Shown piece by piece: positions 8,429 to 11,345 of a stretch of DNA of 64,000 bases (position 1 is the first letter of the stretch; every line of letters starts with the position of its first letter). The translations under genes were made by a program, and so were the position numbers. A model generated the notes under the pieces. That model had not been told where the DNA came from. It searched no databases and saw only the letters and a program-made list of their open reading frames with translations. Source of the DNA: Polyangiaceae bacterium (GTDB taxonomy: Bacteria; Myxococcota_A; Polyangia; Polyangiales; Polyangiaceae); NCBI GenBank assembly GCA_009780955.1, contig WQZB01000013.1, positions 1 through 64,000 of the forward strand, read 5' to 3'.

Positions 8429-8686
8429 TCACGCCAGCTTTTTTGCCAACTCACCCGACTGATCGAGCTCGCGCAGATCGTCGAACCCGCCAACGGGCTC
8501 ACCTTTGATAAAGATTTGCGGCACGGTGCGCCGGCCGCCAGTGGCTTGCACGAGCCACGCGCGCTTGTCGGGATCGCTCGTGACGTCAACCTCTTCGAAG
8601 GCAATGCCGCGGTCTTTCAAAAATGCTTTGGCACCAACGCAATACGGACAAACCCGAGTGGAATAAACAGTGACATCAGCGCTCAT
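8429..8686 (-). CDS. grxC: Glutaredoxin (GrxC-type)
   Basis: The 85-residue cytosolic thiol-disulfide oxidoreductase has the redox-active CPYC motif in VYSTRVCPYCVGAKAFL. It also has the cis-proline TVPQIF and the glutathione-binding GGFDDL segment. The ATG at 8686 gives a protein of normal glutaredoxin size; the open frame extends upstream, but the extra 52 residues have no glutaredoxin features. It faces trmH and is divergent from the clpB-like gene. Confidence 0.9.
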   Translation of the reverse strand: MSADVTVYSTRVCPYCVGAKAFLKDRGIAFEEVDVTSDPDKRAWLVQATGGRRTVPQIFIKGEPVGGFDDLRELDQSGELAKKLA

Positions 8687-8750
8687 GGCGAACAAAGTAT
8701 CATAGTCACGGACGTAACTTTCGCCAGGAGCGTGATAGCGTCGGTGGTTG

Positions 8751-11345
8751 ATGGCTGCCGAGCAGACAATCCACCTCGAGCGATATGCACCCGATGCGAA
8801 GGCCCTGGTGGCCGGCGCGCAAACTCTCGCCGACGAACGCAAGCACGTTCAGGTCGAGCCCATTCACCTGCTGGCGCGCGCGATCGATCGCGATCGAGGT
8901 GCGGCCGAAGTTTTCAAAAAGGCCGGCGCGGATCCAGCCGACGTCGCAGCCGAAGCAGAAGCGCAGCTCGCCAAGCTCCCCAAAGCGGGCTCTGGGCTCG
9001 CATACCTCTCGTCAACCATGCTTGCGCTGCTCGCGCGCGCCGAAAAAGAATCCGACAAAGCAACCGTTGGCGTCGAGCACCTGCTCAACGCGCTGTCGCA
9101 AGAAATTCGCGGACCCGCAGCCGTGGTGCTGCAAGCCTTTGCGCTCGGGCCTGGATCGCTTCGGCCGCACATGGCTGCACTCTACAGCGTGCCACGTGAT
9201 ACCGCGGCCGCCGGGACCGCCTCATCGAGCAGCGACGTGCTCGCACGTTACGTTCACGATCTCACGACGCGCGCTAGCCAGAGCGGGTTCGATCCGGTCA
9301 TCGGGCGCGACACCGAGGTGCGAAGGCTGCTTCAAATTCTTGAGCGCCGCCAGAAAAACCACCCGCTCGTGGTTGGCGAGCCAGGCGTCGGCAAAACCGC
9401 CATCGCTCGGGCACTCGCGATGCGCATCGCTGCGGGCGATGTCCCGCAGAACCTCGCGGCGTTGTCGATCCTCGAACTCGAAGTCGGCCAGCTTCTCGCC
9501 GGCGCGAAGCTGCGCGGCGAAATCGAAGATCGCCTCAAGCAAGTCATCTCGGCTATCTCGAAGCAAGACACGCTCTTGTACATCGCTGCGCTCGAGTCGC
9601 TCCTTGGTCAGGGCGGCGCCGGCAGCGGCGTGGGTGACTTGCTCAAGCCAATGCTCGCGCGAGGTGACGTGCGCGTGCTCGCATCCACAACGCCCGAGGG
9701 CATGCGCAAGCTCGCCGACAAAGACCCGGGGCTACTTCGCCGGTTCACGGTGCTCGCCATCGATCCACCGACGCCAGAACGAGCCATCGAAATTTTACGT
9801 GGAATAACGACACGTTACGAGCAGCACCACAAAGTCCAAATTGGCGACCCAGCGATCGTCGCGGCCGTGCGGCTCGCCAAGCGCTACGTGCAAGAGCGCG
9901 CGCTGCCCGACAGCGCCATTGATTTGCTAGACGAAGCAGCCGCCAGACAACGCGTCGAGATCGACGGTCTCCCTGCTGACATGGATGACGCGATCCGCCG
10001 CGTTGCTTCGCTCAAAGCGCAGCTCGCAGGCCTTGCCGATGACACCGACGCGATGAGCATGAAAACGCGCGACCGCATCACGAAAGAGATCGGCGAGCTC
10101 GAGCCGTCGGTCGCCGAGATGCGCGCGCAGCTCGAGTCGCGTCGCGGTGCGCTCGCCGCACAAGCCGCGATCGGCGAAGAGATGGCGCGGCTCACCATCG
10201 AGCTCGAACAGGCGCGCAAAGAGCAAAATTTCGCCAAGCTTGGTGAGCTCGAACACGTGCAAATTCCCGAGGTGCGAAGGCGCCTCGACGCAGCCAACGC
10301 GGCCGTCGACAAAGCAGGCCTAGCGGGCAGTGCATCGCGCGTTGTCACCGAACAGGGCGTGGCTCAGGTGCTCGGCGACTGGACAGGCATACCTGTCGCG
10401 AAAATGCTCGAAGCCGAAAGCGACAAGCTTCTCAAGATGGAAGAGCGTTTGGGCGCTCGCGTCGTGGGTCAAGGGGAAGCCGTCAAAGCCGTTTCAAAGG
10501 CTGTGCGACGCGGGCGCGTTGGATTGCGCGATCCGGGCAAACCCATTGGAAGCTTTCTTTTCCTTGGGCCTTCGGGCGTTGGGAAAACCGAGCTCGCCAA
10601 AGCACTCGCGGAATTTCTCTTCGACGACGAGCAGTCTATGACCCGCCTCGACATGAGCGAGTTCATGGAAAAGCACATGGCGCAGCGCCTCGTTGGCGCG
10701 CCGCCTGGCTACGTTGACAGCGAGGAAGGCGGATTTCTGACCGAAGCCGTGCGTCGTCGTCCATACAGCGTGCTTCTCTTCGATGAAGTCGAAAAAGCAC
10801 ACGTGGACGTTTTCAACCTGCTGCTCCAAGTGCTCGACGACGGAAGGCTCACCGATGGGCGCGGGCGCACGGCCGACTTTTCAAACACAGTCGTGATTAT
10901 GACGAGCAACATTGGCTCGCAGCGCATTCTCGAGACCGAACCCAAGCTTTTCGAATCCGACGAAGGCCGCGAAGCCTTGAGTGACGTGCTGCGCGAAGAG
11001 CTAAGAAATTTCCTGCGCCCGGAGTTTCTGAACCGCATCGATGATGTCATCATCTTCCGTCCGCTGTCGAAATTGGATCTTCGCGGCATCGTCGATATCC
11101 AACTTCGGCGGCTCGAAAAGCTAATGACCGATCGCGAATTACTCCTTGATTTGACCGAAGCCGCAAAGAAAAGGCTCGTCGAAATTGGCTACGAACCAGC
11201 CTTTGGCGCACGCCCGCTCAAACGCGCCATTTTGAAGTGCGTGCAAGATCCACTTGCCGAGGAAATTCTCGCCGGCGGCTACAAAAATGGCAGCACGGTG
11301 CACATCGACACCGAAGGCGAAGGCTTCAAATTCAACAAAGGCTAA
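8751..11345 (+). CDS. clpB: ClpB-type AAA+ disaggregase with altered first ATPase domain
   Basis: The protein has 864 residues from the ATG at 8751 and the ClpB layout: N domain (1-150), NBD1 (about 165-350), a shortened coiled-coil M domain (about 410-540, with RKEQNFAKLGELEHVQIPE) and NBD2 (about 560-760). There is no ClpP-binding loop. NBD2 is intact: GPSGVGKTE, VLLFDEVEKAH and pore loop GAPPGYV. NBD1 keeps Walker A (GEPGVGKT), but its Walker B reads LLYIAALESL where the family has an IDE core, so both acidic residues are Ala. Pore loop 1 reads AGAKLRGE where ClpB has KYRGE. The first ring therefore probably binds ATP without hydrolysing it and lacks the pore tyrosine. It leads into mpl with a 15-bp gap. 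A lineage-specific ClpB paralogue is likely. Confidence 0.85.
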   Translation: MAAEQTIHLERYAPDAKALVAGAQTLADERKHVQVEPIHLLARAIDRDRGAAEVFKKAGADPADVAAEAEAQLAKLPKAGSGLAYLSSTMLALLARAEKESDKATVGVEHLLNALSQEIRGPAAVVLQAFALGPGSLRPHMAALYSVPRDTAAAGTASSSSDVLARYVHDLTTRASQSGFDPVIGRDTEVRRLLQILERRQKNHPLVVGEPGVGKTAIARALAMRIAAGDVPQNLAALSILELEVGQLLAGAKLRGEIEDRLKQVISAISKQDTLLYIAALESLLGQGGAGSGVGDLLKPMLARGDVRVLASTTPEGMRKLADKDPGLLRRFTVLAIDPPTPERAIEILRGITTRYEQHHKVQIGDPAIVAAVRLAKRYVQERALPDSAIDLLDEAAARQRVEIDGLPADMDDAIRRVASLKAQLAGLADDTDAMSMKTRDRITKEIGELEPSVAEMRAQLESRRGALAAQAAIGEEMARLTIELEQARKEQNFAKLGELEHVQIPEVRRRLDAANAAVDKAGLAGSASRVVTEQGVAQVLGDWTGIPVAKMLEAESDKLLKMEERLGARVVGQGEAVKAVSKAVRRGRVGLRDPGKPIGSFLFLGPSGVGKTELAKALAEFLFDDEQSMTRLDMSEFMEKHMAQRLVGAPPGYVDSEEGGFLTEAVRRRPYSVLLFDEVEKAHVDVFNLLLQVLDDGRLTDGRGRTADFSNTVVIMTSNIGSQRILETEPKLFESDEGREALSDVLREELRNFLRPEFLNRIDDVIIFRPLSKLDLRGIVDIQLRRLEKLMTDRELLLDLTEAAKKRLVEIGYEPAFGARPLKRAILKCVQDPLAEEILAGGYKNGSTVHIDTEGEGFKFNKG

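Follow-up and report, generated by a model that had tools for sequence, protein, structure and literature searches.

A ClpB paralog of one order of Myxococcota in which the first ATPase ring has largely lost its catalytic residues and the second is intact

The window, a stretch of 64,000 nucleotides from a Polyangiaceae bacterium (contig WQZB01000013.1), carries a ClpB-like gene on its forward strand and a divergent gene before it. Features are given below by position in the window, strand and description.

8429..8686, reverse strand: divergent glutaredoxin-like gene (CPYC, 85 aa), a neighbour conserved in part of the clade
8733..8741, forward strand: extended -10-like element TGATAGCGT, 9 bp upstream of the start codon
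8751..11345, forward strand: D1-dead ClpB paralog (ClpB-like Hsp100, 864 aa), from the open reading frame and its translation
8751..9194, forward strand: N-terminal (Clp_N) domain (Pfam PF02861, residues 23-73)
9228..9950, forward strand: D1 (NBD1) AAA+ domain, relaxed (3.0-fold the divergence of canonical D1 across the 37 genomes compared)
9375..9398, forward strand: D1 Walker A, GEPGVGKT, intact in the window copy
9507..9518, forward strand: D1 pore loop 1, KLRG (canonical KYRG/KFRG)
9573..9596, forward strand: D1 Walker B, LLYIAALE, acids lost at 9585-9590
9738..9743, forward strand: D1 arginine fingers R330 and R331 (first kept in 87/92 paralogs, second in 59/92)
9951..10355, forward strand: M domain, full length, with His at the Tyr503 equivalent
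10383..11324, forward strand: D2 (NBD2) AAA+ domain, ATPase intact
10707..10721, forward strand: D2 pore loop, GYVDS (canonical GYVGY)

The top NCBIfam match of the window protein was TIGR03346 (ClpB) at 940 bits, below the curated cut-off of 1232; TIGR03345 (TssH/ClpV) scored 667 bits, also under its cut-off (885). Pfam matches and an AF2 model gave the order Clp_N, D1, coiled-coil M domain and D2. The model, built from 43 sequences (mean pLDDT 84, pTM 0.59), aligned over D1-D2 to chains of ClpC, Hsp104 and ClpB (against E. coli ClpB 4ciu: Z 32.7, rmsd 8.1, 649 residues), so the D1 fold appears to be retained in the model, which is silent on nucleotide binding. The D1 Walker B reads LLYIAALESLLG, in which gct-gcg codons at 9585-9590 place A279-A280 where canonical ClpB has D-E. 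Both this double alanine and the KLRG pore loop had been described by a sequence-only reading and were found again, the pore loop just upstream of the range then cited. The protein thus has one complete AAA+ site (D2) rather than two, and the aromatic pore pair KYR (D1) and GYVG (D2) is replaced by KLRG and GYVD with the D2 Tyr kept. A ClpP-binding tripeptide of the LGF/IGL type was absent from the D2 loop after sensor 1 (TSNIGSQRILETEPKLFESDEG) when the window protein was read by eye.

Residues were compared between 92 paralogs, 48 canonical-type ClpBs of Myxococcota and 39 ClpBs from Alphaproteobacteria. In canonical D1 (Myxococcota, n = 48) the Walker B D, the Walker B E and the pore Y or F were each present in 48/48. 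The paralogs had no aromatic residue in pore loop 1 (0/92; L in 91, A in one), and only 15/92 had the catalytic D1 Glu. The D1 Walker A Thr was present in 39/92 paralogs versus 48/48 canonical proteins, and Walker A was broken (K or T/S lost) in 39/92. D1 had been lost in several forms, with SS, AA, RG, PD or ED at Walker B, or with GKR at Walker A and VDELH kept, and a nominally complete D1 site remained in only seven of the 92. Positions flanking the lost pore Tyr were mostly maintained (K250 as K/R in 82/92, R252 in 90/92, E254 in 70/92, E256 in 86/92); in E. coli ClpB, K250, R252, E254 and E256 staple the pore loops of adjacent subunits (PMC6546751). D2 was otherwise: K, T, D, E, sensor N, Arg finger and sensor-2 R were each found in 92/92 paralogs, as was the pore Tyr/Phe. 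The earlier view of NBD2 as normal therefore held for its catalytic residues and failed for its pore loop, where GYVGY has been re-fixed across the clade as GY[VAK]DS (Gly to Asp in 92/92, Tyr to Ser in 91/92).

The M region of the window protein, at 150 residues, is nearly as long as the canonical median (151), and the suggestion that it was short was not upheld. The Tyr503 equivalent was H in 56, F in 19 and T in seven paralogs, Tyr not being among the residues listed, versus Y in 44/48 canonical proteins; this loss is suggestive, and only that, as a sign on DnaK-dependent disaggregation. Ten relatives matched as M-less forms, eight in genus g16 (family f2) and two in genus g190 (family f1, the window's family), and in the nine that were aligned the M region had ~27-34 residues instead of ~150. 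The g16 and g190 sets fell into separate supported clades, the g190 set nested among ordinary paralogs; the M domain has therefore been lost at least twice, as read from the group table of the tree. M-less loci were L217, L218 and L220-L226 (also L208-L210 and L213), with L219 assigned by score only. D1 Walker A was also broken in M-less relatives (GTGRT, GVGRH, GVGRY).

In a tree from a quick search on D2 columns only, a single branch (SH-aLRT 99) set the 92 paralogs apart from the other sequences. The best tree has six or more changes in the state of the catalytic Glu; counting well-supported branches only, the minimum is four. Joint changes of the lost Walker B acids with the +2 acid, with the second Arg finger or with Walker A were clustered on the tree, with few independent pairs. 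Across 37 genomes with both copies, the ratio of paralog to canonical divergence was 3.01 for the large and 2.97 for the small subdomain of D1, versus 0.99 for N, 1.28 for M, and 0.88 and 0.89 for D2. Mean D1 dN/dS in close pairs was 0.061 for the paralog and 0.055 for the canonical protein. Since D1 dN/dS is ~0.06 and the excess divergence is confined to D1, paralog D1 is, judged by these sequence comparisons, a maintained fold under a different constraint and no decaying remnant.

The paralog was present in at least 88/115 sampled genomes of the window's order (74 by score, 10 M-less and four more divergent or partial copies), most sampled genomes being drafts. The alignment of Myxococcota members that had been proposed as a check placed the variant in a 92-sequence clade, and it is no one-off. 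A second check, for a canonical clpB elsewhere in the window genome (4.2 Mb, 112 contigs, 98.7% complete), found one (L002; KYRG, FIDE, GYVGY). Canonical ClpB, at least partial, accompanied the paralog in 86/88 genomes; it was not found at E 1e-40 in the paralog-bearing drafts G106 and G076 (97 and 99% complete). A scan of public genomes returned 41 relatives of the same clade, labelled Myxococcota-type MAGs (mostly Polyangia or Myxococcales), and the next matches were canonical ClpBs of Alphaproteobacteria. Within the phylum, 53/377 genomes matched the DNA pattern PPGY[VA]DS, 51 of the 53 in the window's order; the two outside it, with GYADW and GYADT, are likely to be chance matches. The ClpB duplicate was probably present early in this order of Myxococcota. 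In a 13.3 Mb two-contig genome (G336:C1), only ~84 kb separate the paralog (L155) from the canonical clpB (L131), which may be a relic of the duplication.

The glutaredoxin-like gene was divergent from the paralog, ~40-260 bp apart, in 24 distinct related loci, where a shared promoter and a link to redox stress are possible; an Mpl-like ligase lay directly downstream of the paralog in many related loci. Both neighbours recur in the window's family and are inconsistent across other families, and they are at most hints of regulation. No substrate or adaptor emerged from the paralog gene neighbourhoods of the window's family and the other families. In 32/91 paralog loci TGNTANNNT lay no more than 38 nt from the start, versus 0, 0 and 1 in upstream control windows; an extended -10-like element so near the start suggests a very short-leader or leaderless mRNA. 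No CIRCE-type operator was found close to the paralog or to the window genome's canonical clpB. The paralog of other families of the order is directly preceded, on its own strand, by a gene for a small conserved protein, perhaps DUF1844-like (L048, L164, L168, L169, L173, L178, L180, L181, L185-L187).

The window genome encodes three Hsp100 genes besides the paralog and canonical ClpB. One (L003, G000:C29), perhaps TssH/ClpV-like, has Met instead of Tyr in its D1 pore and seems to be without a D2 arginine finger (FKPALLARM) and a GARP motif (SGARNVD). Another (L005, G000:C39) keeps the Walker B acids, and its D1 pore loop (TAVRG) and D1 finger (SRCF) are altered.

The reading that we prefer, with fair though far from full confidence, is that the paralog is a duplicated ClpB turned into an Hsp100 that threads substrates with D2 as its only source of power, as a bacterial counterpart of Pex1/Pex6. 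D1 would persist as a non-hydrolysing assembly and spacer ring, still forming the channel entrance, and D2 would do the pulling. Control by the M domain and DnaK would be altered with the loss of Tyr503, and M-domain control would necessarily be absent in the two M-deleted lineages. The paralog would then act alongside canonical ClpB as a DnaK-independent or differently regulated unfoldase with its own substrates. Its residue pattern fits this division of labour between D1 and D2, from which we infer the mechanism. The original interpretation was supported in part: a natural D1-dead ClpB, conserved across the order and accompanied in the window genome by a canonical clpB, with D2 as the sole intact ATPase and D1 retained as a ring. 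Work on E. coli ClpB provides the background: AAA2 is the main motor, its pore Tyr, unlike that of AAA1, is essential, and derepression of the M domain makes up in part for AAA1 defects (E279A, Y251A; PMC6593972). Y503D ClpB is hyperactive and works without Hsp70 (PMC4023160). Pex1/Pex6 has a dead D1 assembly ring above an active D2 ring (PMC10518020). Several points temper the D2-powered reading. The AAA1 Walker B mutation strongly reduces disaggregation in E. coli, so a D2-only machine may be a weak disaggregase; the change of Y503 to His/Phe differs from the tested Asp; and seven paralogs keep a nominally intact D1 site, so that complete loss does not hold for the whole clade. Grip could also be affected by the conserved D2 pore substitutions (G to D, Y to S).

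The strongest competitor, which we nevertheless consider unlikely, makes the paralog a regulatory subunit that forms mixed hexamers with canonical ClpB and tunes it, the D1 arginine finger of the paralog serving canonical D1 sites. Such a role would suit the presence of both proteins in nearly all paralog-bearing genomes and the retention of the first D1 finger despite decay of the D1 site, and in vitro, mutant subunits can be mixed into hexamers of E. coli ClpB (PMC6593972). However, two nearly complete drafts have the paralog with no canonical ClpB found, a third of the paralogs have lost the second finger, the whole paralog D1 diverges threefold and canonical D1 does not, and the M-less members are a poor fit to the belt of canonical M domains. 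It is conceivable instead that D1 is alive, the acid two places downstream of the lost pair (E282 in the window) having taken over ATP hydrolysis. Position 282 is acidic in 33/36 members that lost both acids versus 7/31 with both acidic, but this pattern is clustered on the tree and independent pairs, which are too few, give no support. Many members lose the Walker A K or T as well, and some others without the catalytic Glu lack an acid there (PDLG, PDLS); we regard a surviving D1 hydrolase as very improbable.

The intact Walker A of the window copy, at which ATP could bind and stay, would also allow the function first proposed for this protein, a holdase or substrate trap in which D1 keeps ATP and substrate without release. 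The established E. coli trap requires Walker B mutations in both rings (E279A/E678A), whereas the D2 ATPase and the D2 pore Tyr/Phe of the paralogs are intact in 92/92; D1 Walker A is broken in 39/92, and loss of the D1 gripping aromatic would lower the hold on substrate. The trap was therefore given up as the main explanation and is accorded little credence. An assembly error, a recent mutation or a decaying pseudogene has nothing in its favour beyond the odd residues themselves, and the chance of it is negligible: the same state occurs in many independent assemblies, single-contig genomes included, and the frames are open over their full length with dN/dS ~0.06. Sequencing error or a pseudogene was accordingly ruled out by the relatives and by dN/dS.

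Beyond the D2-powered machine itself, we propose tentatively, as a reading somewhat less likely than not, that the clade is an independently evolved bacterial Pex1/Pex6-like Hsp100 which discarded D1 hydrolysis, D1 grip and, twice, the entire DnaK-binding M domain, re-fixed its D2 pore to suit its own substrates and became a DnaK-independent unfoldase with one driving ring. The role of the first ring in two-ring AAA+ unfoldases has so far been studied mostly with engineered mutants. Here, in many sequences of one order, D1 catalysis has been lost naturally by varied routes with the ring kept, in two lineages together with the M domain, and these ready-made proteins make the split of assembly, grip, regulation and power directly testable. 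They also reveal which D1 residues matter once hydrolysis does not. No report of a natural D1-dead ClpB was found in the literature (open-licence papers).

Disaggregation by a single D2-type AAA ring is known from Skd3 (human CLPB), a likeness to the D2-only reading; Skd3 differs in having no D1 at all and in carrying ankyrin repeats. Canonical ClpB/Hsp104 (TIGR03346; PDB 5ofo, 4ciu, 6qs4) shares with the paralog the order N, D1, M, D2, the length, an invariant D2 ATPase and the lack of a visible ClpP-binding LGF-type tripeptide. The paralog departs from it in lacking the D1 Walker B acids and pore Tyr, in its GYVDS D2 pore, in the loss of Tyr503, in two relative lineages without an M domain and in a window score under the curated ClpB cut-off. 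The ClpB laboratory mutants E279A and Y251A are altered at the same positions as A280 and L254 of the window protein (PMC6593972), but they are engineered single changes in an otherwise canonical protein, whereas the paralog spans many lineages and its D1 changes are linked to others in the D2 pore and M domain. ClpI of Actinomycetota is likewise a lineage-specific extra double-ring Clp beside ClpB, but its ATPase modules are reported to be intact (PMC10149685). A likeness in the way of working is to Pex1/Pex6, the yeast peroxisomal AAA+ machine, in which a catalytically dead D1 is used for assembly and D2 threads (PMC10518020). The same split of dead D1 and active D2 is found in the paralog, by residue conservation only, and the loss of the D1 pore aromatic is compatible with a D1 assembly ring of that type without tight substrate contact. 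Pex1/Pex6 differs in not being a ClpB, in forming a two-protein heterohexamer with other N domains, and in having a D1 that binds ATP without hydrolysis.
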